A stretch of 64,000 bases of DNA from Pseudomonas tumuqii (GTDB taxonomy: Bacteria > Pseudomonadota > Gammaproteobacteria > Pseudomonadales > Pseudomonadaceae). Of the stretch, positions 4,366 through 23,620 are shown piece by piece; positions within the stretch are counted from its first letter, which is position 1; the number at the start of each line of letters is the position of its first letter. The translations under genes and the position numbers were made by a program. The stretch spans positions 1 through 64,000 of the forward strand of contig NZ_JAAOJA010000012.1 of NCBI RefSeq assembly GCF_013184545.1, read 5' to 3'. The notes under the pieces were generated by a model. The model was not told the DNA's origin. It saw only the letters and a program-made list of their open reading frames with translations, and searched no databases.

Positions 4366-5724
4366 TCAGCGAATACCGGCGCCCGCCAGAGCCTCCGGCG
4401 ACCACTGTACCTTCGACAGGGGTTCGATGTACTTGATGCCGCCGTAAGGGCCGACCACACCGTTGACGTTGTAGCTGCCACCGACCAGATCATAGATCAC
4501 GTGAGGTGCAGAGTTGGGCGTATCCACGTCGTAGCTCTGGGTGAAGAAGCTGTAGGAGCCGCGATACAGCTGACCGCGGGCATCGTACTGGTCAGAGGCC
4601 AGGGCCACCCAGGTGTCCTCGTCCAGATAGAAGCGGCGCTTGTGGTAGATATGGCGAGCATCACCCTTGAGGGTACCTTCGACCACCCACACGCGATGCT
4701 TCTCCCAGCGCACGAACTCCGGCGCCAGGTGGTTCGGCGTGGTCATCGGCTTGGGATCCTTGATGTAGGTCAGCGCGTAGGTGTTGTACGGCACGACCAT
4801 TTCCTGCTTGCCGACCAGTTTCCAGTCGTAGCGGTCCAGGCCACCGTTGAACACATAGACGTCATCGTAGGTGCCGGAGCCGGCGGTGCCCGGGTTCGGC
4901 GTGTCGTAGGCCAGGTTCGGCGCGAGCTTCACCCGGCGCACGCCGGGCAGGTACTGCCAGGCACGGCGCGGCTGTGCCAGCGGGTTGGCGGCGTCCTTGA
5001 GCATCAGCGACTCGCCGGCGCGGCGGGCCGGACCGCTGTAGTACAGCTTGATCTGCCAGTAGGTGTCCTTGGCCTCAATGACCTTATTCAGGTCTTCGTA
5101 GATCGGATAGGAATTGAAGGCCATACCGGTGGTGGCCAGGGTCGGGGTGCCTGCGGAGTCGACGTTCCAGGAGTCGTACTTGGTGGAGTACGCGACCCCC
5201 TGGTAACGCAGCAAGTGGTTCCACATGGCTTCCGCCCCGCTCTGCGGAATCGGGAAGGGTACGCCCGGCAGGACGTTCTCGATGGCATTGCCACCTTCCA
5301 GCGACTTGGCGCCGGTGGCGTTCTTCAGGGTGTTGTCCAGCAGGGTCTGGGGCAGCGTCGCCGTGCGATGACTCGGGTAGACATCAATGCGGAAGCTGGG
5401 GAAACGCTTGACCAGCTCGGCGGTGACCGCAGTCAGCTGGTCCTTGTACTGGTCGACGTTCTTGCCGTCGATCACCAGCACCGGTTTTTCATCGGCGAAA
5501 GGATCGGGGCGGAAGGTGTCGCCCGCCTTGAACCCGGCCGGCGCGGTCTTCAGGCCGCCGTCGAAGGCCGGAATGGAACCATCGGCACTGGCCGCCATTT
5601 CGGCACCCACTGCAGTAAGACTGGTGCCCAGCTTGGCCGCTTCCTCGGCCGATACCGCCGCCAGGGCGGCACCTGAAATCATGGAGGCCAGAGAGGCGGC
5701 CAGCAGCGTAGTCACGAATTTCAT
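4366..5724 (-). CDS. DUF1329 family exported protein
   Basis: A 452-aa protein with a clear signal peptide (MKFVTTLLAASLASMISGAA, cut near residue 22). The mature part fits the DUF1329 family (LolA/LolB-like fold predicted): KLGTSLTAVGAEMAAS at the N-terminus, then RRAWQYLPGVRRVKLAPN and VGKQEMVVPYN. Length is typical (about 450 aa). It is encoded 39 bp after its usual partner, a DUF1302 protein. In Pseudomonas putida a DUF1302/DUF1329 pair has, as I recall, been linked genetically to growth on esters or fatty compounds. The biochemical role is unproven; handling of a hydrophobic ligand in the periplasm is an inference from the fold and neighbours. RBS AGGAG lies 9 nt before the ATG. Confidence 0.85.
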   Translation of the reverse strand: MKFVTTLLAASLASMISGAALAAVSAEEAAKLGTSLTAVGAEMAASADGSIPAFDGGLKTAPAGFKAGDTFRPDPFADEKPVLVIDGKNVDQYKDQLTAVTAELVKRFPSFRIDVYPSHRTATLPQTLLDNTLKNATGAKSLEGGNAIENVLPGVPFPIPQSGAEAMWNHLLRYQGVAYSTKYDSWNVDSAGTPTLATTGMAFNSYPIYEDLNKVIEAKDTYWQIKLYYSGPARRAGESLMLKDAANPLAQPRRAWQYLPGVRRVKLAPNLAYDTPNPGTAGSGTYDDVYVFNGGLDRYDWKLVGKQEMVVPYNTYALTYIKDPKPMTTPNHLAPEFVRWEKHRVWVVEGTLKGDARHIYHKRRFYLDEDTWVALASDQYDARGQLYRGSYSFFTQSYDVDTPNSAPHVIYDLVGGSYNVNGVVGPYGGIKYIEPLSKVQWSPEALAGAGIR

Positions 5725-5763
5725 CTTGTTGTACTCCTGCCTAGTGGCTAGGTCATTCGCGGA

Positions 5764-7725
5764 TCAAAAGGTGGTTTTTAAGGTCAGGTACATGGCGCCA
5801 CGATCTTCGCCGGTGGCACCGCCGCCGGAGAACGAGGAGTAGCCGCCGCCGTAGCAGGTGTAGCGCTCAGGACCATCCAGGGCGTTCGGCGTGGCCCCGT
5901 CGGTGGCGCCGTCGTTACACTTCTCCGTCTCGCCGAAGGAGTCGACGTACTTGAGGTCGACGAAGTACTTGCTGTAGATCGCCGCGCTGACGCCCACCGC
6001 ATAGTTGCCGGTGTCTTCGGCACCGCCTGCGACGACCGGGGAGACGCCATCGAGGCCGACGTTGATCGACAGCGGCGCGCTCAGGTCAACACCCGGGAAC
6101 ACCTGGTACCAGGTCGGGGTGAAGTTGACCGCCAGGCCCCAGTTGTCGCGGGTCGGCTTGTCGATGCCACGGTAGGTGCTCTTGCCCTTGTAGAGCGCCT
6201 CGTTCTCGCTATCGAGGCTGATCAGGTTGCTGTAGTACAGCTCGCCGAGCAGGACGGCCGAATCGAACAGCGGGGTGTCGCCGATGGCGACCAGACCGTT
6301 GACGGTCCAGTGCAGGGTTTCGCCGGTGGCTGCCATGCTGTCGCCTTCGCCTGGCACGTCGGTAACCACGCCAGTGCCCGGGGTGCGCGCCGGCAACAGG
6401 CCCAGTCCAGAACCAAGCCCGAGAGGACCAGTCGCACTGAGGATCGCCGGGATGCTGCTCAGCGGCATGTTCTGGCGGAAGTTGAGGTCGCTGCCGATAC
6501 TGACGTCGCCGAAGTTCTTGGACAGGCTCAGACCGTAGATGTCGATGTCGTCGCCGTAGCTGAGGTTGTAGCTGGTGCCGGCCAGGGAGTCGACCAGAGT
6601 ACAGACCGCCCCACCCAGGCCGCCAAAACCGCAGCTATTACCCACAACTGTAAGCGAGCGGGCATCCAGCACGGCCTGCGGCAGGATGTCCGAGGTGTTG
6701 CGGTAGTAGGCGCCCAGGGTGCCGTCCAGCCACTCCGGCGACCACTTGACCATCAGGCCCCAGTCGCCGCGATCATCGGGGGTGTTGTCATCGCCGCGAC
6801 GCACGTTGGTCAGCGCGTCCTGGCCGAGCAAGCCGGGCGGCGTGGCGGTGTGGCCGAGCAGGAAGGACTGTGCGCCCTCGCCCAGCACATCGGAAGTGCC
6901 GTAGTAGGTGCCGGCCTCGGGCAGGCGCGCCTCGTCCCACTTGAGGAAATACTGGGCGCCGAAGGTCAGCTCGGGATTGAGGGTAAAGGTGGTGGAAATC
7001 TGGTTGCGCGGAACGAACAGTTCCTTGGCCTCGGTGCCTGGCGAAGCGGCCAGCTTGGCCAGGTCCAGGCCGGACTGGCCGTAGCTGACCGAATGCACCG
7101 GATTGAGGATGGTCTCGCCCCAGAACACGTTGTGCTGGCCGGCCTTGATGCTGAACAGCGACTCCTCGCCGACCTCGGTGCTGTAGAACAGGAAGGCGTC
7201 GAGGATCTCGCCGGATGGCCCGCTGTAGTAGCGCTGGGCATAGTTGCTCAGGTGCGGGCTACCGTTACCCACGCCGTCGAGACCGGTGAAGCCGCCGACC
7301 AGGGGATGCTGGCCGACCATGCCGCTCACGGCGCCATTGCCGTTGACGAACGGATTGGAGTTCGAACCAGTATTGTCGTAGGCCTTGTCATACCAACTCG
7401 CGGCGCTGACCCGGAAGCCCATGGAATTCTGGTAGACCACGTCGAACTCGGACAGCAGGTCGACGCGGTTGGTGATATTGGTGCCGGACTTGCGGAAGTT
7501 GTAATCACCGTCGTTGTTGTTCGGCGTACCGAGCATGCGCTTGTCGGCACTTTCGGTGCGCACGCCGTAGTTGTACTTGACCGTGTTGTCGAAGCGCACC
7601 GACCAGTCTTCGCTGCCGGTATCGAATTCGAAGGCCTGGGCGACCGGCATGGAAGCGGCCAGGATGGCCGTGGCCAGCAGGCTGCGACGCAAGGGGCTGG
7701 AACCGTGACTCTTGTTGTTGTGCAT
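5764..7725 (-). CDS. DUF1302 family outer-membrane protein
   Basis: A 653-aa protein with a long signal peptide (two arginines at 13-14, hydrophobic core at 15-28, cut after AQA at 31). The mature N-terminus FEFDTGSEDWSVRFDNTVKYNYG and many alternating aromatic/polar stretches indicate a beta-barrel. It ends in MYLTLKTTF, with the C-terminal phenylalanine typical of BAM-inserted outer-membrane proteins. It matches DUF1302 proteins in length and in their pairing with DUF1329. In this operon it would be the outer-membrane component for uptake or surface processing of the substrate. RBS GGAGA lies about 7 nt upstream of the ATG. Confidence 0.85.
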   Translation of the reverse strand: MHNNKSHGSSPLRRSLLATAILAASMPVAQAFEFDTGSEDWSVRFDNTVKYNYGVRTESADKRMLGTPNNNDGDYNFRKSGTNITNRVDLLSEFDVVYQNSMGFRVSAASWYDKAYDNTGSNSNPFVNGNGAVSGMVGQHPLVGGFTGLDGVGNGSPHLSNYAQRYYSGPSGEILDAFLFYSTEVGEESLFSIKAGQHNVFWGETILNPVHSVSYGQSGLDLAKLAASPGTEAKELFVPRNQISTTFTLNPELTFGAQYFLKWDEARLPEAGTYYGTSDVLGEGAQSFLLGHTATPPGLLGQDALTNVRRGDDNTPDDRGDWGLMVKWSPEWLDGTLGAYYRNTSDILPQAVLDARSLTVVGNSCGFGGLGGAVCTLVDSLAGTSYNLSYGDDIDIYGLSLSKNFGDVSIGSDLNFRQNMPLSSIPAILSATGPLGLGSGLGLLPARTPGTGVVTDVPGEGDSMAATGETLHWTVNGLVAIGDTPLFDSAVLLGELYYSNLISLDSENEALYKGKSTYRGIDKPTRDNWGLAVNFTPTWYQVFPGVDLSAPLSINVGLDGVSPVVAGGAEDTGNYAVGVSAAIYSKYFVDLKYVDSFGETEKCNDGATDGATPNALDGPERYTCYGGGYSSFSGGGATGEDRGAMYLTLKTTF

Positions 7726-7865
7726 TATGTTGTCTCCGCTTCTTGTAATTGTTGCTCTAACAACGGCTCACATCCTGTATAGCTGCGATGCGAGTTTTAC
7801 TTATTCAGTTTGTTCCTGGACGCATACTTGTTTGCTGCGCGCAGCGCATACGCTGGCGTTCCCGA

Positions 7866-8432
7866 CTAGTGATCCAGATCGTCGATGAAATCCTCGGCCA
7901 GCGGCCATTTGCCGTAGCCGGAAGCCGGATTGAGGTGGCCGACCGCGCCGAGGTTGACCAGTGCACTGCCCCAGTCCTGGGCCATGCGGGTAACCGCGTC
8001 CAGGCTGGCCAGGTAATCGTTGGAGCTGCCGGCGAGGATGCTGCGAAACGGCAGCTTGCCCTTGGGCAGCGGGTTCCAGCCGTTGGCCCGCAGGCTGTCC
8101 GGCGTCGGGTAGTTTTCCGGCCAGCTGGCATCGAGGTCCGGCGGTGCGACCAGCAGCGCGCCCTTGATCGGACGGTCGTAGCGCGCGGCCCAATGCGCCA
8201 CCATCAGCACGCCGGCGCTGTGCGCGACCAGGATCACCGGCCCGTCGATCTGCTCCAGCTCGCGCTGGATGGCCTCGACCCGGGCGGCGCAACTGAGCTT
8301 GTCGGTTTCCAGGGGTGGCACGCTGCGCACCTTGGCCAACCTGGCCTCGAGCAAGGTCTGCCAATGCTCGGCGACATGCTCACGCAGGCCCGGCACGATC
8401 AGAACGGTTGCGGCAGTTTGCTTTTTATCCAC
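7866..8432 (-). CDS. Alpha/beta hydrolase of the RBBP9/YdeN type
   Basis: About 188 aa from a GTG start. Signatures: TVLIVPGLREHVAEHW near the N-terminus, nucleophile elbow VAHSAG (Ser), and LGAVGHLNPASGYGKWP near the C-terminus with the catalytic His. These small serine hydrolases (RBBP9 / YdeN, COG3545) act on short esters or amides; no signal peptide is seen. I chose the GTG at 8432 (GAGG 8 nt upstream) over an ATG at 8564 because the extension is not hydrolase-like and would run through the conserved operator at 8523-8560. It is the first gene of the envelope operon, 140 bp before the DUF1302 gene, and could cleave an ester that the DUF1302/DUF1329/MMPL parts bring in. Confidence 0.75.
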   Translation of the reverse strand: MDKKQTAATVLIVPGLREHVAEHWQTLLEARLAKVRSVPPLETDKLSCAARVEAIQRELEQIDGPVILVAHSAGVLMVAHWAARYDRPIKGALLVAPPDLDASWPENYPTPDSLRANGWNPLPKGKLPFRSILAGSSNDYLASLDAVTRMAQDWGSALVNLGAVGHLNPASGYGKWPLAEDFIDDLDH

Positions 8433-8560: not shown

Positions 8561-8953
8561 GCACTGATCACCTTCGCACTCATGGCGCCACTGCCAGCCG
8601 ACACAACAAACACAATCAAGACAAGGATTAGTTCAGACGCCAGCCTGGCACTCAATGTCAACAACCAGAATCACCGATTGCGCCTGATTGGCCCTCCGAC
8701 GGCCTCCTGGACACTGATAAAATTCCCCGGAAGTTGATTGCCATCACTCACTACGTTCTTACACAGTCTGGGCCAATTGCTGCCGATCATCGATTCTGGA
8801 TACCGGTCATTCTGGCGACTGCATCGACTTGAATCCTGTCGGACTGCCTGCGCATAGAACACGGTCATTGCAACTGGTGGCGCCAGCTCAGTTGAATAGG
8901 CAAGTTTTCCGACATTGACGCTGAGTACCGGCTGGTCCGTGCTGCTGAAACAT
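8561..8953. other. Intergenic stretch without a supportable gene
   Basis: This lies between the envelope-operon operator and the FAH gene stop codon. Base composition is visibly less GC-rich than the envelope operon. A 97-codon minus-strand open frame (8671-8964) overlaps the end of the FAH gene, lacks an RBS and resembles no family I know. It probably marks the seam between two DNA segments. Confidence 0.5.
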
Positions 8954-9814
8954 TCAGGCTTCATCTACCACGTGATTGCGCAACAAGCCGATGCCTTCTA
9001 TCTCGACCTCGCACACGTCTCCAGCTTTCATGTAAAGCGCCGGCTGGCGGGTGAACCCGACTCCCGGCGGTGTGCCGGTCACAATGACGTCGCCTGCCTG
9101 GAGCGTGAGCGCTTCGCTCAACAAGGCAATCAACGTGGCGGCATCGAAAATCATGTCGTCGGTGGAGGCGTCTTGCACAATCGTGCCGTTCAAGCGGGTC
9201 TGCACGCGCAAACCCTTGCCGCCTGCCGGCACCTCGTCAGGGGTGACGAGATAGGGGCCGAAAGCGCCCGTGCCGTCGAAATTTTTCCCGACCGTCCATT
9301 GCGCACCCTTCATCTGGTAATCGCGCACTGAGCCATCGTTGAACACCGAATAACCCGCAACGTGTTCAAGCGCTTTTTCCTTGGCGATGTGGCGTCCGGG
9401 CTTGCCGATCACGACGACGAGCTCACCTTCAAAGTCAAATTGTTCCGAGGCTTTTGGCCGCACCAAAGGTGCGCCGCTACCAATCAAACTTGACTGAAAG
9501 CGGGCGAAAACAGCTGGATAGGTGGGGGGCTGGAACCCGCCTTCTTTTGCATGCTCCAGATAGTTCAAGCCAATGCAAATGATCTTGCCCGGACTTTGCA
9601 ACGGCGGCAGCACTTCAACCTCTGCGGCGCTGAATGTGCGCCCATCCAGCAGACACCGTCCGGCTGCCTGAAGCACTTCGTCACCTTTCTCGATCAAGGT
9701 TTCCAAGGTTCCGGGGTAGGCATTTTCATCCTCCAAACAACCGCGCAACTGTCCTTTTGTATCCACAACTCCCAAGCCTTGCTTGCCGCACGACTTGAAT
9801 ACTTGAAATCGCAT
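8954..9814 (-). CDS. Fumarylacetoacetate hydrolase family protein
   Basis: A 286-aa protein with the FAH C-terminal domain: ICIGLNYLEHAKEGG, then FEGELVVVIGKPGRHI with the metal-binding E-x-E type motif, YSVFNDGSVRDYQ, and VTGTPPGVGF near the C-terminus. Members cleave C-C bonds of 1,3-dicarbonyl acids (acylpyruvates, fumarylpyruvate) or decarboxylate/isomerise 2-oxo-diacids with Mg2+ or Mn2+. The C-terminal block GDVCEVEIEGIGLLRN is typical of the acylpyruvase/ureidoglycolate-lyase-like branch. It is the last gene of the module-1 operon (QOR1 to FAH). Substrate unknown; a 1,3-diketo acid arising in the pathway would fit. Confidence 0.85.
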   Translation of the reverse strand: MRFQVFKSCGKQGLGVVDTKGQLRGCLEDENAYPGTLETLIEKGDEVLQAAGRCLLDGRTFSAAEVEVLPPLQSPGKIICIGLNYLEHAKEGGFQPPTYPAVFARFQSSLIGSGAPLVRPKASEQFDFEGELVVVIGKPGRHIAKEKALEHVAGYSVFNDGSVRDYQMKGAQWTVGKNFDGTGAFGPYLVTPDEVPAGGKGLRVQTRLNGTIVQDASTDDMIFDAATLIALLSEALTLQAGDVIVTGTPPGVGFTRQPALYMKAGDVCEVEIEGIGLLRNHVVDEA

Positions 9815-9924: not shown

Positions 9925-10551
9925 TTACTTCGTATCCATGACCGCCTTGTAGATGGATCGCTTTGGCGCTCCCATCACTCGTTGCACCATTGGCTCGAAG
10001 GTGCTCAGCGGATAAATCTCGCCGTCCGGATCGAAGGCCGGGCTGTCGTATTTATCGATAAACTCTAGCGTGCGCTCATAATGCGGATGGCCCTTGAACT
10101 GGTCACGCATGTTGCGATCCATGCCGATGTAGTGAAAGAAATTGTGCCCCTGAAAAATGCCGTGATGCTCAATCATCCACAAGTTAGCTTCGGATACGAA
10201 AGGCTTCAGGATCGCCGCTGCGACTTCGGGGTGGTTGTACGAGCCCAACGTATCGCCTATATCGTGCAGCAGGGCGCACACCACATACTCTTCGTCGCGT
10301 CCGTCTTTCAAGGCCAGCGTGGCGCTCTGCAGGCAGTGGCTGTAGCGGTCGATCGGAAAGCCGCCGAAGTCGCCCTCCAGAAGCTTCAGGTGCGCCAGTA
10401 CGCGCTCAGGCAGTCCGCTGAAGAATTTCGCTGCCTGGGGTTTGATGATGTCCCAGTCTTCCTGGGTGCTGTCCTGCATGCGTTTGAATTTCGCCAGTTT
10501 CATCATGGAAGTCTTCATTTCTGATCTGCCGTGTGAGGTTGCCATCCGCAT
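9925..10551 (-). CDS. HD-domain protein, PhnZ/TmpB/MIOX-like (putative diiron oxygenase)
   Basis: A 208-aa protein. The metal-ligand pattern of the HD fold is visible: H in YSHCLQSA, HD in ALLHDIGD, H in YNHPEVAAAIL, H in IEHHGIFQGH, and a late D in FIDKYDSPAFDPDG. The stretch from HCLQSATLALKDGRDEEYVV through ALLHDIGD closely parallels PhnZ (EHSLQ...ALLHDLGH), the mixed-valent diiron oxygenase that works after the 2OG dioxygenase PhnY. The window also encodes three 2OG (TauD) dioxygenases, so an analogous hydroxylate-then-cleave pair is plausible. The Tyr/Glu pair that binds substrate in PhnZ is not obvious here, so phosphohydrolase activity is not excluded. Start could be an internal ATG at 10518. 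Confidence 0.7.
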   Translation of the reverse strand: MRMATSHGRSEMKTSMMKLAKFKRMQDSTQEDWDIIKPQAAKFFSGLPERVLAHLKLLEGDFGGFPIDRYSHCLQSATLALKDGRDEEYVVCALLHDIGDTLGSYNHPEVAAAILKPFVSEANLWMIEHHGIFQGHNFFHYIGMDRNMRDQFKGHPHYERTLEFIDKYDSPAFDPDGEIYPLSTFEPMVQRVMGAPKRSIYKAVMDTK

Positions 10552-10581: not shown

Positions 10582-11460
10582 TCAAATCACGGCGCCGCCA
10601 TTGGGACTGATCACCTGTCCCACAAAGTAATGGTCTCCCGCCAGGTACGTCGCCATGGATGCATATTCCTCCATCTGGCCGAAACGCCCCGCGGGAATCA
10701 TCTGCCAGAATCTGTTCCTGCCTACTTCGCCGATGGAGTCGAGATACTCCTCGAAGAACGGTGTCGACACGCCTCCCGGCGCCAGCGCGTTGACGAGGAT
10801 ATTGGCTCCGGCCACTTCGGCTGCGACCGACTTGGTGAACGCAATAACGGCTCCCTTGGTGGCGCAGTAGTGGGGGCTGTGCAGGCTGATGGTGGAGAAG
10901 CCTGCGATGGAGGCCAGGTTAATGATTCTGCCGTACTGCTGCGCCTCCATCAGTTTGAGGGCTTCGCGCGTGCAGTAGAACATGCCATGCACATTGACAT
11001 TCCAGTAGCGGAGCCAGTCCTCATCGGTGATTTGGCTGGTGAAGCCGAGAGACTGACGAGGCACTGGCGTGGTCATGTAGGCGTAGTGCTTGTTGCGTCG
11101 CTCCGCGTCGGCTTTTCCGGTGGGCGCGACCGCTGCGTTGTTCACCAGAATATGCAGCGCGCCAAAACGCTCAACGGCGCTGGCAAACATCTCTGCCACC
11201 TCACGGCTTGAAGTAATGTCGCAGCGCAGTGCCAGACAGGCAGCGCCCGCCTCTTCCACTTTTTGCCGGGTTTCTTCCAGGGCAGGCATATCAATATCGC
11301 AGATAACGATATCCGCGCCGGCCTTGGCCAAGTCGACCGCGATGCTGCCGCCAAGACCACGGCCTGCACCAGTGATCAGGGCAATGCGGCCAGCGAGCTT
11401 GCCTTGTGTTCTGTCGCTTGTCGCATGTTCGGTTCGTTGTGATTGCTGTGACGACTGCAT
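10582..11460 (-). CDS. Short-chain dehydrogenase/reductase (SDR)
   Basis: A 292-aa classical SDR. NAD(P)-binding motif TGAGRGLG is near residue 31, an acidic CDID after strand 2 suggests NAD preference, NNAAVAP is motif II, Ser lies in NLASIAGF and the catalytic pair in YCATK. It is longer than usual (about 250) because of an N-terminal 22-residue polar tail and an insert (KADAERRNKHYAYMTTPVPR) before helix 4 that probably shapes the substrate pocket. RBS GGGAGA precedes the ATG. It lies 57 bp after the second SDR gene and 30 bp before the HD gene. Likely oxidises a hydroxy acid made by the TauD enzyme to the keto acid used by BKACE (inference). Confidence 0.88.
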   Translation of the reverse strand: MQSSQQSQRTEHATSDRTQGKLAGRIALITGAGRGLGGSIAVDLAKAGADIVICDIDMPALEETRQKVEEAGAACLALRCDITSSREVAEMFASAVERFGALHILVNNAAVAPTGKADAERRNKHYAYMTTPVPRQSLGFTSQITDEDWLRYWNVNVHGMFYCTREALKLMEAQQYGRIINLASIAGFSTISLHSPHYCATKGAVIAFTKSVAAEVAGANILVNALAPGGVSTPFFEEYLDSIGEVGRNRFWQMIPAGRFGQMEEYASMATYLAGDHYFVGQVISPNGGAVI

Positions 11461-11517: not shown

Positions 11518-12249
11518 TCAGGCAGGTCGGCGCATGAGACTGTAGCTCTGGGCCGTCGGACCGCCGTCGGGCATGCTCGCCAGGAACAAGGCCATGGGCG
11601 TCACCTCCTGGGGGGACTTGAACCACTCTCCTGGGGGGATGGCCGCATCGCGGGTCATGGCGGTCTTGACCGGGCCAGGAATGAGTTCGTTGACGCTGAT
11701 GTTGTATTCATGCAGTTCCAACGCCAGCGATTGAGTGAGCATCCACATGCCGCTCTTGGAACAGGAATAAGCCGAAAACCCTGGCGCAGGGCGATTGCGT
11801 TGACCGGAGCCGACCATGATGATCTTGCCGGCGCCACGCTTACGCAGATGCGGGATAGCGGCATGTGCCGTGTAGTAAGCACCTGTCAGGTTGATGTCGA
11901 TCGTCTTGCGCCACAACTCAGGGTCGCTGTCTTCGATCCGGCGTTGCTCGGTGGCGACACCGGCATTGGCCACCACAATATCGACCCCACCATATTCATC
12001 GCTGGCGCGCTGAAATAAAGAGACCAGCGAAGCGTAGTCAGCCACGTCAGCGACATGCGCAAGCGCCCGACCACCCGAGGTCTTGATCTGAGCGGCCGTT
12101 TCTGCGATTTCCGCGCCGCTGCGAGCGCTGCACACCACGGCAGCGCCAGCCTTTGCATAGGCGATGGCAATACTGCGACCGATGCCACGACCGGCACCGG
12201 TAATGATGGCGACCTTACCCTCGAGCGGGGTGGGATTGGAGTGGTTCAT
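11518..12249 (-). CDS. Short-chain dehydrogenase/reductase (SDR)
   Basis: A 243-aa classical SDR: TGAGRGIG at about residue 16, ANAGV motif, Ser in MVGSGQRNRP, YSCSK catalytic pair, then NELIPGPVKTAMT in the substrate loop. After strand 2 it reads CSARS instead of an acidic residue, which suggests NADP(H) use, unlike its neighbour. RBS AAGGAAA is 7 nt upstream. Two SDRs with different apparent cofactor preference in one operon may act on different intermediates. Confidence 0.88.
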   Translation of the reverse strand: MNHSNPTPLEGKVAIITGAGRGIGRSIAIAYAKAGAAVVCSARSGAEIAETAAQIKTSGGRALAHVADVADYASLVSLFQRASDEYGGVDIVVANAGVATEQRRIEDSDPELWRKTIDINLTGAYYTAHAAIPHLRKRGAGKIIMVGSGQRNRPAPGFSAYSCSKSGMWMLTQSLALELHEYNISVNELIPGPVKTAMTRDAAIPPGEWFKSPQEVTPMALFLASMPDGGPTAQSYSLMRRPA

Positions 12250-12290: not shown

Positions 12291-13685
12291 TCAAAAGAAT
12301 GGTTGTGAACTGGTAGCCTCAAAACGGCGCAGATCGCGCACATAGCTGGCCCTCGCGCAAGCAAACATCAGCGCAGCAGCGATAGATATCAGTGGGATCC
12401 ATTGCAAGGCCCCCAGCAGGCCAATCTGATCGGCCAGCACGCCCGTCAGGTAGGGGCCTGGCGCAGCACCCAGCAGATTGTTGGCCAACACCAGCGTGGC
12501 AAGGGCCGTCGAGTGAATGGCCGGGTGCACCAGGTTGGTCACTACGGCGCCAGCTGGACCATAGCTGCCAGCCGCGAAAAAGACGCCAACGGCGATCATG
12601 ACAAACTGTGCAGCGCCCGGCGGCAAGCGCATGGCGATCACCAGCAAGACACAGGCGCCCAGACAGAACTTGATCGCCAGCGTCAGTTGTTTCTCCGGCG
12701 CGTCGCGCCCGGATCTGTCGGCGAAGGCACCGCACACGGCCATGCCGATCCCGCTGGCAATGAGCAGCAAAGCCGCTGCCAGTGCCGCCTTGTCCAGGGC
12801 CATACCGTAGTAGCGGTTAATGTAGCTCGGCACCCAGGAGATGACGGAGTAGGCGATAAACAGCTGCAGGCCGCTGGCGACGTAGGCGAACACCAGCGTA
12901 GGAGCGCCAAACAACGCCTTGACGATCTTGCGCAGCAGCTTGCGGTCCATGTTTTTCAGTCCGCCCGCACCACTCACTGCTTCAGACGAACCCTTGTGCA
13001 CATGCAGGGCAACGCGGGCTTCGGTAATGGTCAATACGTAGACCAGCACCAGCAGCAGGCCGAAGAGGGCCATGGCAATGAATGCCGCCCGCCAGCCAAA
13101 GTGGGTAGCCAACACGCCACCAGCCGCCATGCCGAGCACCGAGCCGAACATGCCCGCAGCCGTGAATGCACCGGTCAGAGTGGCGCGCTTGGCCGGGGGA
13201 AAAATACTCAGGATGATGGCCAGACCGACGCTTCCGTAACCGGCCTCACCCAGCCCCACAAAAAAGCGCGCGAGCAGCATATGGCCATAGTTTTGCGCGA
13301 CTCCGCACCCCAGGGTGGCGAGGCTCCAGAACAGCACCATCAGCACGATACATTTAACCCGTCCAAAGCGGTCGGCCAGTACCGCGATCGGGACAGCCAA
13401 CAAACCAACCATCAGACCGACAATACCGCTGAGCAAACCGAGCTGGGCATCGCTCAGGCTCCATTCAGTTTTCAGCTGGGGAAACACGGCGCTGAGCACT
13501 TGCCGAGACATGTAATCTGACAGCATCAGGCCGAAGATGATGGCAAACACCAACCAAGCGTAGGCGCGCGAGCGTGGAGCCTCGAGCGCAAGGCCGGCGT
13601 TGGCAAACGAAGCGACAGATTCTTCCTGCATGGGTGTGCCTTGGTCTGTTGCGACGAAAGGCGTCGCGCCAATAGCTTGATTCAC
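12291..13685 (-). CDS. MFS transporter, module 1 copy
   Basis: A 464-aa, 12-TM major facilitator. TM1 is near residues 44-62, followed by LLSGIVGLMVGLLAVPIAVLADRFGRVK, which carries the loop 2-3 motif A (DRFGRVK). It is clearly homologous to the MFS at 28808-30136 (YAW-VFA--FGL--SDYMSRQVL-AVFP core). Start is a GTG with GGATAGG upstream. It belongs to the QOR1-TauD1-BKACE1-MFS1 block and lies 84 bp after BKACE1, beyond a strong hairpin. Probably imports an organic anion used by the pathway; substrate not determinable. Confidence 0.88.
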   Translation of the reverse strand: MNQAIGATPFVATDQGTPMQEESVASFANAGLALEAPRSRAYAWLVFAIIFGLMLSDYMSRQVLSAVFPQLKTEWSLSDAQLGLLSGIVGLMVGLLAVPIAVLADRFGRVKCIVLMVLFWSLATLGCGVAQNYGHMLLARFFVGLGEAGYGSVGLAIILSIFPPAKRATLTGAFTAAGMFGSVLGMAAGGVLATHFGWRAAFIAMALFGLLLVLVYVLTITEARVALHVHKGSSEAVSGAGGLKNMDRKLLRKIVKALFGAPTLVFAYVASGLQLFIAYSVISWVPSYINRYYGMALDKAALAAALLLIASGIGMAVCGAFADRSGRDAPEKQLTLAIKFCLGACVLLVIAMRLPPGAAQFVMIAVGVFFAAGSYGPAGAVVTNLVHPAIHSTALATLVLANNLLGAAPGPYLTGVLADQIGLLGALQWIPLISIAAALMFACARASYVRDLRRFEATSSQPFF

Positions 13686-13769: not shown

Positions 13770-14825
13770 TCAGACTCCGCTCAGGGGCATATTTTTCTGA
13801 CCCGGTTTACGGTTCGGCGCCATGCCATTGGCGGCCAAGGTTTCCTCGATGCTGTTGTACTGCACACCGATCTTGTAGATCTCGCGCGCTTCCTTGCCGG
13901 TGGCGATTTCACGCCCCAGTTCGTGGGCGATGCGCACGGTTTGCTTGACCTGATCGACCGAGCCGAAACGATCGCCCTTGTGGTCAATGATGGTGTCTTC
14001 GTTGCCCACTCGCGGGTGCAGGCCCATGGCCAGAGCCATGGTGTTGAACGGCAGCACGTTCTTCAGCAGCGATTCGGAGGTCAGGGTGCAACCGTCTGGC
14101 ACGCGGTGGATGAAGTTGAAGAAGTTGAACGGGTTCGGGCCGTCGAAACCGCCGCCGATGCCGATCCAGGTCAGGTTCAGCGGCCCCATGTACAGGCCCT
14201 TGCGCACCAGACGCATGAGGGTTTCCAGGGCGTGGATGCCGGTCAGCTGGAAGTGCGGCTGGATGCCGGACGCCTGCAGGCGGCGCAGGTGTTCTGCCAC
14301 AAAGGCAGGGCCGGCCGGCACGGTCATTTCGCTGTAGGCAGCCTGGAAGGCCGGGCTGCCCAGGGAGGTGCCTTCCAGGTATTCCGGATACAGCAGCTCC
14401 ATGATGTTCATCTGGGTGGTGTTGATCGCCAGGGTGACCTGATCAGGTTTGGGCGTCAGGTCGGCCAGCATGTGACGGGTGTCGTCGGACAGCCACAGGG
14501 CTTCTGCACCGTCACCTTCCGGCGCGAAGGAGATCGAACCGCCCACCTGGATGATCATGTCCGGCACGGCGTCGCGCACGCCGGCAATCAGTTCGTTGAA
14601 CTTGGACAGACGCTTGGAACCCTTGCCGTCCAGTTCACGTACGTGCAGGTGCAGTACGGTGGCGCCGGCGTCGTAGCAGTCAACGGCCTTCTGTACCTGC
14701 TCGTCCATGGTCAGCGGGATGTCTTCCGGGAAGTCTTCCGGCATCCACTCTGGACCGTACGGGGCCACGGTGATGACCACCTTGTCCATGTTTTCTACGT
14801 GCAGGGAATCGTCCAGGAATTGCAT
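13770..14825 (-). CDS. BKACE (DUF849) beta-keto acid cleavage enzyme, copy 1
   Basis: A 351-aa protein of the BKACE/Kce family (TIM barrel, Zn2+). The zinc-ligand histidines are visible in ATVLHLHVRELDGKG; SKFNELIAGVR, IQVGGSISFAP and NLTWIGIGGGFDGPNPF are family blocks. The family condenses a beta-keto acid with acetyl-CoA to release acetoacetate and a new acyl-CoA. It is longer than Kce (about 276 aa), with an extended N-terminus and C-terminal tail. By eye it is about 85-90% identical to copy 2 and about 60% to copy 3. It lies 62 bp downstream of TauD1; RBS GAGGAAG. Its substrate class within BKACE is not assignable here. Confidence 0.88.
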   Translation of the reverse strand: MQFLDDSLHVENMDKVVITVAPYGPEWMPEDFPEDIPLTMDEQVQKAVDCYDAGATVLHLHVRELDGKGSKRLSKFNELIAGVRDAVPDMIIQVGGSISFAPEGDGAEALWLSDDTRHMLADLTPKPDQVTLAINTTQMNIMELLYPEYLEGTSLGSPAFQAAYSEMTVPAGPAFVAEHLRRLQASGIQPHFQLTGIHALETLMRLVRKGLYMGPLNLTWIGIGGGFDGPNPFNFFNFIHRVPDGCTLTSESLLKNVLPFNTMALAMGLHPRVGNEDTIIDHKGDRFGSVDQVKQTVRIAHELGREIATGKEAREIYKIGVQYNSIEETLAANGMAPNRKPGQKNMPLSGV

Positions 14826-14887: not shown

Positions 14888-15736
14888 TCAGTAAGGCTGA
14901 TTGCCGATGATGGTGGCGCGGTCCATCTTGCGATGGCAGGGCGGGTAATCCATCACGGCGTAATGCTGGGTCGAACGGTTATCCCAGATCGCCACGCTGT
15001 TTTTCTTCCAGCGCCAGCGCACCTGGTACTCGGGGTTGTAAGCCTGGCTGATCAGGTACTGCAGAAGGTCACTGCCGCCCTTGTTGTAATCCTGGCCGTA
15101 ACGCACCCGTTCCCGGGTGTGGTAATTCACCAAGTGGGTCGTGAATGCATTGACGAACAGGATCTTTTCACCGGTTTCTGGATGCGTGCGCACCACCGGG
15201 TGTTCGGCATCTGGGAACTGGCTCTTCAGCGCGAGACGCTTTTCCTTCGGCATGGCGGCGCCGAAACTGGACTCGATGCTGTGGCTGGCAATCAGGTCGG
15301 CAATCTTCGCCTTGACGTCATCCGGCAGCTTCTCGTAGGCCAACACCATGTTGGCCCACATGGTGTCGCCACCGACCGGCGGGCATTCCACGCAGCGCAG
15401 CACGGCACCCAAGGGCGGGGCTTCGCGCCAGGTAGCGTCGGTGTGCCAGCAGTTCTCGTAGCGGTCTATCGGACTGTCCGGGCTCTTGTAGATTTGCACC
15501 AGGCCCGGCGCGTCCGCGTGAGTGGGTGCCACCGGGTGATCTTCAAGGTCGCCAAAGCGGCGCGCAAAAGCCGCATGTTCGACGCTAGTGATGTCCTGGT
15601 CGCGCAGAAAGAGCACGCGATGCTTGATCAAGGCCTCACGGATGGGTGCGAACAAGCCATCGTCATGCACCGCGTCACGTAAACTGACACCCATCAGCTC
15701 GGCACCGATGGCACAGCTCAGTTGTTCGACTCTCAT
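14888..15736 (-). CDS. TauD/TfdA family 2-oxoglutarate dioxygenase, copy 1
   Basis: A 282-aa Fe(II)/2OG dioxygenase. The facial triad is visible: H and D in WHTDATW, distal H in STQHYAVMDY, and the 2OG-binding Arg in CHRKMDRATI. The N-terminus (IGAELMGVSLRDAVHDDGLF, HRVLFLRDQD) is typical of TauD/AtsK/RdpA enzymes, which hydroxylate next to a sulfonate, sulfate ester or carboxylate and often split off an aldehyde. RBS AGGAGG is strong. It lies 14 bp after QOR1 and 62 bp before BKACE1. It may make the hydroxy acid that later becomes the BKACE substrate (inference). Confidence 0.9.
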   Translation of the reverse strand: MRVEQLSCAIGAELMGVSLRDAVHDDGLFAPIREALIKHRVLFLRDQDITSVEHAAFARRFGDLEDHPVAPTHADAPGLVQIYKSPDSPIDRYENCWHTDATWREAPPLGAVLRCVECPPVGGDTMWANMVLAYEKLPDDVKAKIADLIASHSIESSFGAAMPKEKRLALKSQFPDAEHPVVRTHPETGEKILFVNAFTTHLVNYHTRERVRYGQDYNKGGSDLLQYLISQAYNPEYQVRWRWKKNSVAIWDNRSTQHYAVMDYPPCHRKMDRATIIGNQPY

Positions 15737-15750: not shown

Positions 15751-16731
15751 TTAAATGACGAAGATCGAGGAGCCGGTGGTCTTGCGCGCTTCCAGATCGC
15801 GGTGCGCCTGTGCCGCGCCTTCCAGCGTATAGCGCTGGTTGATCTCGATCTTGATGCGGCCCGCGCCGACATGACCAAACAGCTCGCCGGCCAGATCCGC
15901 CTTCTCGGCCGGGTCGGAAATGTAGTCAGCCAAGGCTGGACGGGTCAGATAAGGTGAACCCTTGGTGGCCAGAATTTGCGGATCGAAACCCGAGATGGTT
16001 CCGGACGTGAAGCCCAGGCAGACCACCAGACCGCGCCGCTTGACGGAGTTGAGTGAGGCATCGAAGGTGCTCTTGCCAACGCTGTCGATGACGACGTTCA
16101 CGCCGACGCCATTGGTAAATTCGCGTACACGCTTGGCCACATCTTCATGGCTGTAATTGATGGTGTGATCACAGCCATGGGCCCGGGCGATGGCCGCCTT
16201 CTCTTCGGTTGAAACCGTGCCGATGACCGTCAAACCCAACAGCTTGGCCCACTGCGAGACGATCAGGCCGACGCCGCCGGCGGCGGCGTGCAGGAGGATG
16301 CTGTCGCCCGGCTTGAAGTCGTAGATGCGCCGCATCAGATAGGACGAGGTCAGGCCGCGCATGGTCATGGCGGCAGCGGTTTCACAGCTGATCGACTCGG
16401 GCAGCTTGATCAAGGGCGCAGCCGGAATCAGGCGCTCGGTGCTGTAGGCACCCAGCGTGTTCAAAAAGCCGGTGTAGGTCACACGATCGCCTACAGCGAC
16501 ATTGGTCACGCCTTCACCAACGGCATCGACCACGCCGGCAGCTTCGACGCCCATGCCAGCGGGCAACGGCATCGGATACAGGCCACTGCGGAAATAGGTG
16601 TCGGCGAAGTTCAATCCGACCGCTTCATGGCGCAGCCGAACCTGACCAGGACCGGGATCGCCGACGTCTACTTCCTCCCAGCGCAGGACTTCCGGACCGC
16701 CTGTTTCATACATGCGTATGGCGTGTGGCAT
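15751..16731 (-). CDS. Zinc-free MDR quinone oxidoreductase-like protein, copy 1
   Basis: A 326-aa member of the NADPH:quinone reductase branch of the medium-chain dehydrogenases. GroES-like N-terminal domain (GPGQVRLRHEAVGLNFADTYFRSG), Rossmann motif AAAGGVGLIVSQWAKLLG, and GRIKIEINQRYTLEGAAQAHRDLEARKTTGSSIFVI at the end. No structural or catalytic Zn cysteines are present. The same length and high identity as QOR2 (32330-33310) mark it as part of a duplicated module. It is first gene of the module-1 operon, divergent from araC1 with the operator between them; RBS GGGAGAG. Likely removes a reactive enone or carbonyl intermediate (inference). Confidence 0.9.
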   Translation of the reverse strand: MPHAIRMYETGGPEVLRWEEVDVGDPGPGQVRLRHEAVGLNFADTYFRSGLYPMPLPAGMGVEAAGVVDAVGEGVTNVAVGDRVTYTGFLNTLGAYSTERLIPAAPLIKLPESISCETAAAMTMRGLTSSYLMRRIYDFKPGDSILLHAAAGGVGLIVSQWAKLLGLTVIGTVSTEEKAAIARAHGCDHTINYSHEDVAKRVREFTNGVGVNVVIDSVGKSTFDASLNSVKRRGLVVCLGFTSGTISGFDPQILATKGSPYLTRPALADYISDPAEKADLAGELFGHVGAGRIKIEINQRYTLEGAAQAHRDLEARKTTGSSIFVI

Positions 16732-16883: not shown

Positions 16884-17906
16884 ATGCCGAACTTGATAAG
16901 AAGCTCAAGCCTGACAAACTTTATCGACGTGGCCCGCGCAGCTGGCCTGGATCCCTATCGCCAGTTGCGAAAAGCCGGCGTCAGCACATCCGCATTACTG
17001 GATCCGGACATCAAGATCCCGGCGAATTCGGTGATGCGCCTGCTGGAGGATTCGGCTCAGGCATCAGGAGTCGAAGACTTCGGCCTGCGCATGGGCGAAA
17101 CGCGCCAACTGGACAACCTCGGGCCATTGGCGATTGCCCTGCGCGAGGAAGCCACGCTGCGCGAAGCTCTGGGATCGGTCGCACGCCATCTAGTGCTGTA
17201 CAACGAATCGATGGAGTTGCGCATCGAGGAAGGGGATGGCGTGGCGCTCCTCAAGCTGCTGGTGATACACGGCGCGCGCGGATCTCTGCGGCAATCAATC
17301 GAGATCGTCATGTGCACCTTGTACCGCATCCTCAAACTGTTCCTTGGCGCAAGCTGGAAGCCCAGAAGTGTCTGCTTCGAGCACAAGGCGCCAGCCAGCT
17401 TGGTCACGCACAGACGCGTGTTTGGCACGTCAATCCTGTTCAATCAGGACTTCGACGGTATTGTCTTGAGCCAAACCGATTTCGATACAAAGATCTCCTC
17501 GTATGACCCCGTCCTGGCGTGGCATGCCCGCGACTTCCTGAATGCGAAGCTGGCGCAGTCTGATGTGACGATGCCAGACAAGGTCAGAAAGCTGGTGTTG
17601 GCCCTGCTACCGAAAGGCGAGTGCGTTGCCGAGCGCGTGGCCGAGCAACTGGGTATGGATCGCAAGACCGTGCACCGCCATCTGGCCAGTCACGGCCAGA
17701 ATTACTCCTCCATCGTCGATGCGGTTCGGGTCGATCTGGTGATTCAATACGTCGAAAACAGAGAACGGCCGCTGTCTGATGTGGCGATTTTGCTGGGCTT
17801 TTCGTCCTTGAGTGCCTTTTCTCGATGGTTCTCGGACCGCTTCGGCTGCAGTGTGTCGACGTGGCGCCGCGAAATACGCCAGCCGGTTTTAACCTCCACA
17901 GTTTGA
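16884..17906 (+). CDS. AraC-family regulator 1
   Basis: A 340-aa protein: an N-terminal ligand-binding domain of the PF12625 type (LTNFIDVARAAGLDPYRQLRKAG at the start) and a C-terminal double HTH (ERVAEQLGMDRKTVHRHLASHG, then VAILLGFSSLSAFSRWFSDRFG). Length and layout resemble OruR/VqsM-like activators. It is divergent from the QOR1 operon with a direct-repeat operator between; RBS GAGGGG is 7 nt from the ATG. It is paralogous to the regulator at 18833-19852 (about 45-50% identity by eye). Probably the direct activator of module 1. Confidence 0.9.
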   Translation: MPNLIRSSSLTNFIDVARAAGLDPYRQLRKAGVSTSALLDPDIKIPANSVMRLLEDSAQASGVEDFGLRMGETRQLDNLGPLAIALREEATLREALGSVARHLVLYNESMELRIEEGDGVALLKLLVIHGARGSLRQSIEIVMCTLYRILKLFLGASWKPRSVCFEHKAPASLVTHRRVFGTSILFNQDFDGIVLSQTDFDTKISSYDPVLAWHARDFLNAKLAQSDVTMPDKVRKLVLALLPKGECVAERVAEQLGMDRKTVHRHLASHGQNYSSIVDAVRVDLVIQYVENRERPLSDVAILLGFSSLSAFSRWFSDRFGCSVSTWRREIRQPVLTSTV

Positions 17907-18558: not shown

Positions 18559-18733
18559 ACAGGCTCTCTCAAGTCTTTCGCTTAGTTCCCCCACCAACGA
18601 CTTCGGCGACCAGACAAACAGGGCGCCAGCAGATATCGTCACGTGTGCATCGGGGCCGTTTTTTCAAAACTGACACTGGAGACAGAATTTACTGGAGGCC
18701 AATTTCTTGAAAACCACAAAGGACGTCAAAAAC

Positions 18734-18750
18734 TTCTCATTTCATGACTT
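18734..18750 (+). promoter_or_regulatory. Single AraC half-site upstream of araC2
   Basis: TTCTCATTTCATGACTT matches 16 of 17 positions of the half-site at 35655 and closely that at 33414. No convincing second half-site lies 21 bp to either side. It is 83 bp upstream of the preferred araC2 start, which argues against the longer open frame from 18707 being translated. Suggests autoregulation by AraC2. Confidence 0.5.
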
Positions 18751-18832
18751 GCAGACCAGCCTTGATCCATGTCAATTTTCTTTCTGCCGGGGCCGCTGCC
18801 CAGAGCAAGCCCTCCCCCAGGAATGCCCGCAC

Positions 18833-19852
18833 ATGACAAAACTGGTTCGCGCCGCCGTCCTGACCAACTACCTGGAAACCGCCCAACATCTCGGCCTCAA
18901 TCCACACAATTTGCTGGCCGGGGTTGGCCTGAACAAGACCATGCTGCAGGATCCCGAGCAGCGCATCCCGGTCGATGCCGCGGTGCGTCTGCTGGAGGAC
19001 TCGGCAGCCGCCAGCGGCTGTCAGAACTTCGGCCTGAGCATGGCCGAATCGCGCCAGCTCTCCGACTTCGGTGCGGTCAGCCTGCTGCTCACCCACCAGC
19101 GCACCCTGCGCGAAGCGCTACAGGTGGTGGTGCAGTACCGTCACCTGCTCAACGATTCGCTGGCGATCTTCATCGAAGAAGCCGGCAAGATGGTGATCAT
19201 TCGCGAGGAAGTGGTCACCGAGTCGCACCTGCCCTGTCGCCAGGCCAATGAGCTGGCGATCGGCGTGATGTTCCGCCTGTGCGCCGCCCTGCTCGGCACG
19301 CACTGGCATCCCTACAGCGTCAACTTCACCCACCAGGCACCGAACAATCTGCAACTGCATCGCCGCCTGTTCGGCTGCAAGCTGGAGTTCGGCAGCGAGT
19401 TCAACGGCATCGTCTGCCCCGACGCCGACCTGGACGCGACCAATCCCCATGCCAACCCGGCGATGGCACGCTACGCCCAGCGCTACCTCGACTCCCTGCA
19501 GAGCGGCAACGGCGAGTCGATGCTGTTCGAGGTGCGCAAGGCCATCTACCTGCTGCTGCCGATGGGCCGCGCCACCATCGAGCAGATCGCCCAAACCCTG
19601 GGCATGAACGTGCGCACCCTGCAGCGCCGCCTGAAGGAAGGCGACAGCACCTTCAACGAACTGATCAACGACGTGCGCCGCGACCTGGTGCTCCGCTACC
19701 TGGAAAACCCCGACTACTCGCTGGGACGGATCGCCGACATGCTCGGCTACTCCATGCCGAGTTCCTTCACCCGCTGGTTCATCGCCCAGTTCGGCATGCC
19801 GCCGGCAACCTGGCGCGGTACGCACAAGCAGGTGCCGCGCAACAGCGGCTGA
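18833..19852 (+). CDS. AraC-family regulator 2
   Basis: A 339-aa protein from the ATG at 18833 (AGGA 7 nt upstream), the same length as araC1. N-terminal PF12625-type domain (AAVLTNYLETAQHLGLNPHNLLAGVGL), C-terminal AraC HTHs (IEQIAQTLGMNVRTLQRRLKEG and RIADMLGYSMPSSFTRWFIAQFG). A 42-codon upstream extension is open but carries the operator half-site, so I leave it out. Its own leader holds a half-site nearly identical to those before QOR2 and TauD3, so it may control modules 2 and 3 and the envelope operon. It converges with the SDR at 19868, only 15 nt apart. Confidence 0.9.
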   Translation: MTKLVRAAVLTNYLETAQHLGLNPHNLLAGVGLNKTMLQDPEQRIPVDAAVRLLEDSAAASGCQNFGLSMAESRQLSDFGAVSLLLTHQRTLREALQVVVQYRHLLNDSLAIFIEEAGKMVIIREEVVTESHLPCRQANELAIGVMFRLCAALLGTHWHPYSVNFTHQAPNNLQLHRRLFGCKLEFGSEFNGIVCPDADLDATNPHANPAMARYAQRYLDSLQSGNGESMLFEVRKAIYLLLPMGRATIEQIAQTLGMNVRTLQRRLKEGDSTFNELINDVRRDLVLRYLENPDYSLGRIADMLGYSMPSSFTRWFIAQFGMPPATWRGTHKQVPRNSG

Positions 19853-19867
19853 AGCCCCTGGCTAGTG

Positions 19868-20707
19868 CTAGGCGCGACGCGGCAACGCCGTCTTGTTCGC
19901 CAAGAGCCGATCGAGCAGCCGGGTCGGCAGCAGCGCGGCCAGGTACCACATCGGGTTGAGCGGGTAGCGCGGCTTTGGCCGGGGCGCTTCAATGGCCTTG
20001 AGCACGGCCCGGCTGACCGTCGCCACCGGCGCCCCTTTGGCCCCGTTGTGCGCCAACAGACCGAACAGCGCCTGCATGGCGCCCGCGTAATCGCTGTCCA
20101 GGTAGCGCGTGTCGGGTTGCGCCTTGCTCCAGATCGGTGTGCGGATTGGCCCCGGTTCGATGACTACCACCTGGATGCCGTAGATGCCCAGCTCCACCCG
20201 CAGTGCGTCGCTGACCGCCTCCAGCGCATGCTTGGTGGCGGCATAGCAGCCGGTCAGCGGTGTCGCCACCCGCCCGGATACCGAGCCGATATTGATCACC
20301 CTGCCCGGTCGTGTGCTGTCCTGGCGCGCGCCGAGTAGCGGCAGGAAGGCCTGGGTGACGGCCAGCAGGCCGAACAGGTTGACCTCGAACATGCCGCGGA
20401 TTTCCTCCAGCGGCTGCAGCATCAGCGGGCCGCTGGGCGAGGCGATCCCGGCGTTGTTGACCAGCGCCGCCAAGCCCTCGGCGCCGACCCACTGCTCGAC
20501 CTGGCGCACCGCCTGCGGCAAGCCGGCGCTGTCGCTCACGTCCAGGCGCAGCGGCAGGAACGCCTCGCCGAGGATGGCGCGGGCACGCACCCCGTCCTCG
20601 TCACGGCGCACCGTGCCGATGACCCGGTAACCCTGTTCGATCAGCAGGCGAGCGCTGTCCAGGCCAATGCCCGAAGAGACGCCGGTGATCAGGACGAAAG
20701 ACTTCAT
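19868..20707 (-). CDS. Short-chain dehydrogenase/reductase (SDR)
   Basis: 279 aa: VLITGVSSGIGLDSARLL at the N-terminus, TVRRDED after strand 2 (NADP-type), NNAGIAS, Ser in NIGSVSGRVAT, and YAATKHALEA catalytic pair. The C-terminal 50 residues (KPRYPLNPMWYLAALLPTRLLDRLL) are hydrophobic/basic, as in retinol-dehydrogenase-like SDRs (COG4221/COG0300) that sit at membranes. The ATG overlaps the MFS stop (ATGA), so it is translationally coupled to the transporter upstream. There is no operator copy near this pair; a role in the TauD/BKACE pathway is uncertain. Confidence 0.88.
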   Translation of the reverse strand: MKSFVLITGVSSGIGLDSARLLIEQGYRVIGTVRRDEDGVRARAILGEAFLPLRLDVSDSAGLPQAVRQVEQWVGAEGLAALVNNAGIASPSGPLMLQPLEEIRGMFEVNLFGLLAVTQAFLPLLGARQDSTRPGRVINIGSVSGRVATPLTGCYAATKHALEAVSDALRVELGIYGIQVVVIEPGPIRTPIWSKAQPDTRYLDSDYAGAMQALFGLLAHNGAKGAPVATVSRAVLKAIEAPRPKPRYPLNPMWYLAALLPTRLLDRLLANKTALPRRA

Positions 20708-21918: not shown

Positions 21919-22028
21919 TGGGGCGCTCGCCGCTCTCCGTGGACGGCCCCGGCCGTCCGTAAGGAGCGTCGCCGCGACCGCAAGCAATAAAAGCGGTCGA
22001 CTGCCGAAACAGTCGCCGCAAAGCCCGG
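21850..22028. repeat. Duplicated segment, copy A (MFS 5' end and leader)
   Basis: The first codons of the Bcr-type MFS gene and its leader recur, diverged, at 23247-23425. Best-conserved parts are GCGAACTGGCCCATGG and the leader block AGCGGTCGACTGCCGAAACA. The rest of 22029-22413, up to the end of the next gene, contains nothing I can support. Confidence 0.7.
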
Positions 22029-23151: not shown

Positions 23152-23175
23152 CTTCCCTACCCTCGGTTCTTGTTG

Positions 23176-23425: not shown

Positions 23426-23482
23426 GCTCCCCGGATAAAGTGCCCTGCCCCCGCATGGAGTAACGGGGTAAGGCGCTTAACA

Positions 23483-23617: not shown

Positions 23618-23620
23618 CTT

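Follow-up and report, generated by a model that had tools for sequence, protein, structure and literature searches.

An HD-domain protein in a catabolic operon of Pseudomonas tumuqii is a candidate diiron oxygenase from a family placed as sister to the phosphonate HD oxygenases

The HD-domain protein considered here is encoded in the window, that is, in the whole 64,000-nucleotide stretch of Pseudomonas tumuqii DNA that was analysed. Judged from its sequence, it is probably a diiron oxygenase of the PhnZ/TmpB/MIOX kind, a candidate member of a sister family in which the bond cut is most likely a C-C bond. By sequence the family is placed next to the phosphonate HD oxygenases, as a separate sister group; the placement is drawn from profile and sequence matches, fold matches, hhalign comparisons and a separating tree. 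The family is apparently widespread and uncharacterised, and a literature search with thin coverage of subscription journals found no characterised member. Only three HD-domain oxygenases are listed in PMC8177086 (2020), and PMC10574752 (2023) contributes phosphonate variants.

What supports this placement? The open reading frame is intact in the ORF list and spans exactly 10551 to 9925, and the segments HCLQSA and ALLHDIGD, for which the sequence-only reading had called the protein PhnZ-like, both lie within it, in the same stretch that phmmer aligns to TmpB and PhnZ. The Pfam HD model matches the protein at 28.3 bits (cut-off 22). Against solved chains, phmmer gave TmpB (6npa) as the best sequence match at E 1.5e-5 and PhnZ (4mlm) at 6.4e-4. 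A profile of 42 relatives matched PhnZ at 2.8e-8 and TmpB at 6.2e-8, and the next match, a dGTPase-like chain, came at 0.21. An hhalign comparison of the family with 17 Phn-HD proteins scored 99.2% (E 4e-19, 136 columns); the same comparison gave 0.3-11% for seven further HD proteins encoded in the genome and 9% for a YfbR-like set. These hydrolase sets are small and mechanically chosen, and the YfbR-like one has six rows, one of them (L212) in a wrong frame. On a tree of 96 family rows and the 17 Phn-HD rows, with rows from these two sets alone, the two sets separate with a support of 100. The likeness to PhnZ was thus borne out by sequence, profile and hhalign, as well as by the fold.

The AlphaFold model of the protein has a mean pLDDT of 91.5. 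In structure comparison (VIA) this predicted model matched PhnZ with Z 18.0 (rmsd 3.1 over 153 residues, 23% identity) and TmpB with Z 17.2 (rmsd 3.1 over 155 residues), followed by mouse MIOX with Z 12.6 (rmsd 3.3 over 141 residues) and human MIOX with Z 11.8 (rmsd 3.5 over 136 residues). A superposition on these three enzymes had been proposed earlier, and they proved to be the best solved matches of the predicted model: ranks 1-7 are all PhnZ, TmpB or MIOX, and the next is a tRNA enzyme at 8.6. All ten Foldseek matches below 0.001 are PhnZ or TmpB. In PHROGs the only match, at E 0.062, was a weak one to a family whose function is unknown.

Each of the three enzymes also differs from the window protein. 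PhnZ, which works with PhnY as a 2-amino-1-hydroxyethylphosphonate oxygenase, shares the six-ligand motif, and a 2OG partner such as it has occurs in some family relatives; however, the setting of the window gene is carbon catabolism, and by eye the stretch from HD to the following His is some 11 residues shorter in the window protein. TmpB works with TmpA as a (R)-1-hydroxy-2-trimethylaminoethylphosphonate oxygenase, and some family members are likewise paired with TmpA-like dioxygenases, but the window protein scores only 35.8 bits on the NCBIfam TmpB model (cut-off 300), 35.4 on Phn-HD (214.6) and 19.9 on PhnZ1 (300). Orthology to PhnZ or TmpB was rejected on these scores and on the co-occurrence of TmpB and a family member in the same genomes. 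MIOX, the myo-inositol oxygenase, offers a precedent for C-C cleavage, yet it is a longer protein with another substrate setting. Pfam MIOX (PF05153) has no match at 0.1 in the window protein or anywhere in the window's genome, and membership of the MIOX family was rejected on that account. As a prospective tree outgroup, Pfam MIOX gave one weak match among 150 genomes.

The active site was compared in an alignment of 164 proteins, which includes the window protein; four of 167 loci were set aside because their read-through contained a stop. The motif H...HD...H...H...D was used as the metal-ligand motif for alignment, as given in PMC8177086. The positions are as follows, with counts in family members.

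10045..10338, minus strand: six putative ligands together, aligned with the PMC8177086 motif
10336-10338, minus strand: putative metal ligand His72 (163/164; one His72Tyr)
10261-10266, minus strand: putative metal ligands His96-Asp97 (each 164/164)
10231-10233, minus strand: putative metal ligand His107 (164/164)
10162-10164, minus strand: putative metal ligand His130 (164/164)
10045-10047, minus strand: putative metal ligand Asp169 (163/164; one gap)
10357..10368, minus strand: Phe62 and Phe65, aligned by phmmer with PhnZ Tyr24 and Glu27
10345..10347, minus strand: Arg69, three residues before His72 (162/164)
10252..10254, minus strand: Asp100 of HDxGD (160/164)
10150..10152, minus strand: Gln134 of H...Q (164/164)

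Conservation of the ligand positions exceeds chance, each being kept in 163 or 164 of the 164 proteins. The PhnZ lid residues Tyr24 and Glu27 (numbering from PMC8177086) align with Phe62 and Phe65, which confirms the loss of the lid already suspected from the sequence; the YxxE of the PhnZ/TmpB subgroup is not found in the window protein, and MIOX also lacks it, according to the same source. At position 65 the family has F in 121, Y in 42 and C in one of 164, and never E; at position 62 it has F (48), Y (36), L (26), C (17), H (13), T (9) and others. Phn-HD proteins, by comparison, have Glu at the Glu27 position in 17/17 and Tyr at the Tyr24 position in only 10/17, HDxGH in place of HDxGD in 17/17, and H...K in place of H...Q in 17/17; this set misses two of 19 loci, and pattern matching served to choose its H...K and R..D motifs. 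Most of the family has E, A, H or D where PhnZ has Arg158. In PhnZ the phosphonate is contacted by His62, Lys108 and Arg158. Within the family, the 19 proteins that have a GBBH, PhyH or BKACE partner all carry Tyr at position 65; the 19 linked to Mpo1 and the four cluster proteins carry Phe. Two far relatives, L087 (HD at 9175-9735) and L088 (HD at 8864-9409), carry Gln where the family has Arg69 and HDxxK where it has HDxGD, a pattern reminiscent of MIOX; they may form a further uncharacterised group.

The strongest single point against an oxygenase is Arg69, on which the sequence-only reading was silent; the missing lid pair counts against it as well. The position of Arg69 is M or Q in the 17 Phn-HD proteins, and Arg three residues before the first His is a conserved feature of HD phosphohydrolases in the figure 3 legend of PMC8177086. 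Could the protein then be a dinuclear HD phosphohydrolase that resembles PhnZ only through the shared di-metal site? Its Arg69 would bind a phosphate group, of a nucleotide or of a phosphorylated sugar, in the manner of YqeK-like diphosphatases. YqeK has the same six-ligand arrangement according to PMC8177086, and one plasmid relative (H6) is annotated as a phosphohydrolase. However, HD hydrolase chains among the matches listed reach at most Z 7.8 against the predicted model, compared with 12-18 for the three known oxygenases; the profile and sequence matches are oxygenases as well; and a phosphohydrolase has no obvious place beside 2OG dioxygenase, carnitine and beta-oxidation genes. We regard it as unlikely, and infer that Arg69 is an anion-binding residue able to serve a carboxylate. 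Less likely still is a PhnZ/TmpB-type enzyme that continues to cut the C-P bond of a hydroxyphosphonate, which we consider quite improbable even with PhnZ and TmpB as the closest solved relatives and TmpA-like dioxygenases as partners in the family, one of them above the TmpA cut-off (L240). The window protein's scores on the TmpB, Phn-HD and PhnZ1 models, at 20-36 bits, stay far under the cut-offs, and the Glu, HDxGH and H...K of Phn-HD proteins are replaced. Three genomes (G067, G226 and G435) hold TmpB above its cut-off and, elsewhere, a PhyH-coupled family member, and no phosphonate gene was found among the 30 window proteins scanned (up to 49 kb).

The HD gene and the genes around it are listed here.

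8954..9814, minus strand: FAH-family hydrolase (Pfam)
9925..10551, minus strand: HD protein of 208 aa, a candidate oxygenase with a mixed-valent diiron site (ORF, profile, fold comparison)
10582..11460, minus strand: SDR1 (Pfam; homologous clusters in other genomes)
11518..12249, minus strand: SDR2 (Pfam; homologous clusters in other genomes)
12291..13685, minus strand: MFS transporter (Pfam)
13770..14825, minus strand: BKACE, beta-keto acid cleavage enzyme (Pfam)
14888..15736, minus strand: TauD/TfdA-type 2OG dioxygenase (Pfam; taurine dioxygenase model 259.5 bits, cut-off 313)
15751..16731, minus strand: QOR, NADPH:quinone reductase-like (PRK10754 354.1 bits, cut-off 348)
16884..17906, plus strand: AraC-type regulator, divergent (Pfam)

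The minus-strand genes run in the order QOR-TauD-BKACE-MFS-SDR2-SDR1-HD-FAH, with gaps of 14-84 bp from QOR through HD (30 bp between SDR1 and HD) and 110 bp between HD and FAH. Pfam matches to the window proteins agree with the non-phosphonate setting beside BKACE, SDR and FAH enzymes that the sequence-only reading had described. That reading had also paired the HD gene with the TauD gene. From the same-strand run and the short gaps the two likely share one operon, so this part holds; but four genes (BKACE, MFS and both SDRs) lie between them, the 2OG dioxygenase gene is not adjacent to HD as it is in the 2OG-HD pairs of relatives, and TauD is not the usual neighbour of the family. The TauD of the window travels with BKACE rather than with HD: the genome has five TauD matches, three of them within the window, and each of the three is beside a BKACE gene. 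The two further pairs (BKACE 30341-31393 with TauD 31467-32600, and BKACE 33557-34612 with TauD 34658-35506) belong to a second catabolic cluster at 18707-35506, which also holds a QOR, CoA-transferase subunits, a PhaC-like gene and a 245-aa ORF (22414-23151) without a Pfam match at 1e-5.

Is the HD gene a regular member of this cluster? A search for SDR1 in 298 genus genomes found five places in four other genomes, and the plasmid collection gave no match to SDR1. Three of the places, one of them the contig of L113, have the full order AraC | QOR-TauD-BKACE-MFS-SDR2-HD-SDR1-FAH followed by DUF1329, so that HD is present in 3/3 SDR2-SDR1 clusters found through SDR1. At the other two, where SDR1 is 64-66%, BKACE, MFS and DUF1302/1329 are present, and TauD, SDR2, QOR and HD gave no match. 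Incomplete versions occur in L097 (QOR, TauD, SDR2, SDR1 and HD, without BKACE or MFS) and in L099 (AraC, MFS, SDR2, SDR1 and HD, without TauD, QOR or BKACE). The HD gene comes after SDR1 in one cluster type and before it in the other, and in a 29-row tree the HD proteins of the two types fall apart, those of the second type grouping (98/99) with proteins of Pseudomonas and Acinetobacter, of which two are aldolase-linked. A single HD clade is rejected there (AU p 0.0005 with six rows, 0.0002 with five), while a wider quick tree does not reject a single clade of the window, L097 and L113 (AU p 0.087), so that two entries rest on the smaller tree. It is probable from these trees that HD joined the SDR/TauD cluster twice, by double recruitment or replacement, and two separate entries suggest that the pathway needs the HD activity.

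Relatives at E 1e-5 were found in 41 of 299 sampled phylum genomes (a few are fragments or weak, at least one weak and partial) and in 56 of 99 genus genomes (a few fragments or weak). Neighbourhoods were surveyed at 166 loci with profiles for partner families built from few seeds; adjacency was counted from profile hits since gene calls beside HD, made with a rough GC-position score, are unreliable in places. The counts cover the seeded families, and partners of other families would escape. Directly upstream on the same strand stands a GBBH/TmpA-like dioxygenase at 7/166 loci and a PhyH at 6/166, and nine of these 13 genes overlap HD by 1-11 bases, with starts picked mechanically. A BKACE gene is directly upstream at 6/166; all six loci share one genus code and have a carnitine dehydrogenase-type gene on the downstream side. 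A class II aldolase adjoins HD at 9/166; the literature search, thin for subscription journals, found no paper on HD/aldolase pairs. Pfam on representatives showed an acyl-CoA synthetase upstream in five loci, and a thiolase downstream with a FadB-like gene upstream in three. Some sought partner type is present at 58/166 loci, including three window-type clusters, and none was detected at the other 108. The fewest context changes on the tree are 3 for GBBH, 4 for PhyH, 8 for aldolase, 1 for Mpo1 and 1 for BKACE. On the 12.9-kb, mobilizable plasmid of Sphingobium baderi (L178), an aldolase, HD and an alpha/beta hydrolase stand in a row at 5052-7353, downstream of the transposase gene of ISPme1; they may form a mobile catabolic cassette.

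A 2OG dioxygenase partner thus exists in the family, as had been expected from the known pairs, but it is rarely of the window's type, which accompanies HD only in L097, L113 (= L268), L269 and L270 beside the window; no relative of the window TauD was found in 40 family loci examined, and TauD as the family's standard partner was rejected. The GBBH-type partners were scored on the TmpA model, whose cut-off is 400: those of L096, L220, L222, L248 and L249 reach 318-355 bits and that of L240 reaches 422.5. Of the HD genes at these loci, the four tested (L096, L220, L222 and L240) score 38-45 bits on the TmpB model. The L249 locus has a gamma-butyrobetaine dioxygenase above cut-off (431.1 against 414.75), with BKACE and dehydrogenase profile hits, and L085 a carnitine 3-dehydrogenase above cut-off (595.9 against 592). 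A P. aeruginosa plasmid carries the pair with genes for a choline-binding protein, a choline dehydrogenase and an aldehyde dehydrogenase behind it. The best 25 matches to the plasmid query (48-67% identical), all of which were fetched, comprise eight with a 2OG dioxygenase directly upstream, six with BKACE and carnitine dehydrogenase, and 11 with neither.

The remaining context is an Mpo1-like 2-hydroxy fatty acid dioxygenase (PF06127), a protein family unrelated to HD and absent from the window operon. It lies directly upstream at 19/166 loci, which overstates this context, since some genus loci were chosen as probable Mpo1 copies. The fair count for Pseudomonas concerns near-family copies outside the window's genome: 51 of 52 stand directly behind an Mpo1-like gene, taken from the upper part of the Mpo1 match list and leaving out three fragmentary HD rows (the second G329 piece, G385 and G365). 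Mpo1-like genes occur in 97/99 genus genomes, so they are often present without HD. The Pseudomonas proteins are of two kinds, near 140 bits and near 75 bits. A P. putida gene annotated as porin pcaP is nearly identical to a 2-hydroxy fatty acid dioxygenase according to PMC13332142. In a Pseudomonas genome (G329), the Mpo1-linked HD gene near 7337-7940 (L254) reads as two overlapping pieces and is apparently broken.

Two further explanations concern the role of the window gene. One, compatible with an oxygenase, is that HD directly takes the product of the TauD at 14888-15736. The shared likely operon, the joint presence of TauD and HD in the window and the four loci named above, and the recurrence of 2OG-HD pairs speak for it, yet in L099 AraC, MFS, both SDRs and HD are retained and TauD is missing, TauD stands beside BKACE three times in the window and twice without HD, and the window TauD is of the TauD type, whereas the dioxygenases of the coupled pairs are GBBH or PhyH. 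Such a direct pair is conceivable, though we would not expect it. The other sees in HD an accessory or moonlighting protein that owes its position to chance inheritance. The very mixed contexts, with no sought partner type detected at most loci, would fit, but the two separate entries into the same cluster, the constant place behind Mpo1-like genes in Pseudomonas and the overlapping 2OG-HD pairs make chance a poor explanation, and we hold it to be very unlikely.

How would a diiron oxygenase of this family act? The putative site would be a di-iron one held by His72, His96-Asp97, His107, His130 and Asp169. Following PMC8177086, the hydroxylated substrate would sit on one iron and O2 on the other, a superoxo species would abstract the carbinol hydrogen, and the adjacent bond would break. 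The bond beside the hydroxyl-bearing carbon would thereby be cut in a four-electron oxidation without external reductant. This bond is most likely C-C, because the phosphonate-site residues are changed and the neighbours are carbon-catabolism genes. In the window, the substrate would probably be an acid intermediate made by the operon's 2OG dioxygenase and/or the SDRs, and BKACE would then handle a beta-keto acid.

A more specific proposal, by analogy, points to C1-C2 cleavage of alpha-hydroxy acids. PhyH is an alpha-hydroxylation enzyme, the neighbours concern fatty acids and betaines, and O2-driven C1-C2 cleavage of a 2-hydroxy acid already has a precedent in Mpo1-like proteins, whose yeast founder is reported to perform alpha-oxidation of a 2-hydroxy fatty acid. 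Family members might then use O2 and a mixed-valent diiron site to act as C1-C2 lyases of alpha-hydroxy acids, catalysing R-CH(OH)-COO- + O2 -> R-COO- + CO2 + H2O, the carboxylate counterpart of PhnZ acting on R-CH(OH)-PO3. Arg69, Asp100 and Gln134 would hold the carboxylate in the phosphonate's stead, and the coupled 2OG dioxygenases (PhyH, TmpA-like) would make the alpha-hydroxy acid. Examples could be beta-alanine betaine to glycine betaine and delta-valerobetaine to gamma-butyrobetaine; in Pseudomonas, 2-hydroxy fatty acids would be shortened beside Mpo1; and in the window, one carbon would be removed from an acid intermediate between the TauD/SDR and BKACE steps. Taken with all these roles, the proposal is a tentative one and somewhat unlikely to hold in full.

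The family is distinguished by its own active-site signature and, in places, by its own 2OG partner genes, and the overlapping 2OG-HD pairs are small two-gene systems suited to assay. Should its members prove to be oxygenases that act on carbon acids, the reach of mixed-valent diiron chemistry, so far phosphonates and inositol, would widen to ordinary fatty-acid and betaine catabolism. A testable function could then be assigned to records that currently carry the names 'phosphohydrolase', 'HD domain-containing protein' or 'inositol oxygenase family protein'.
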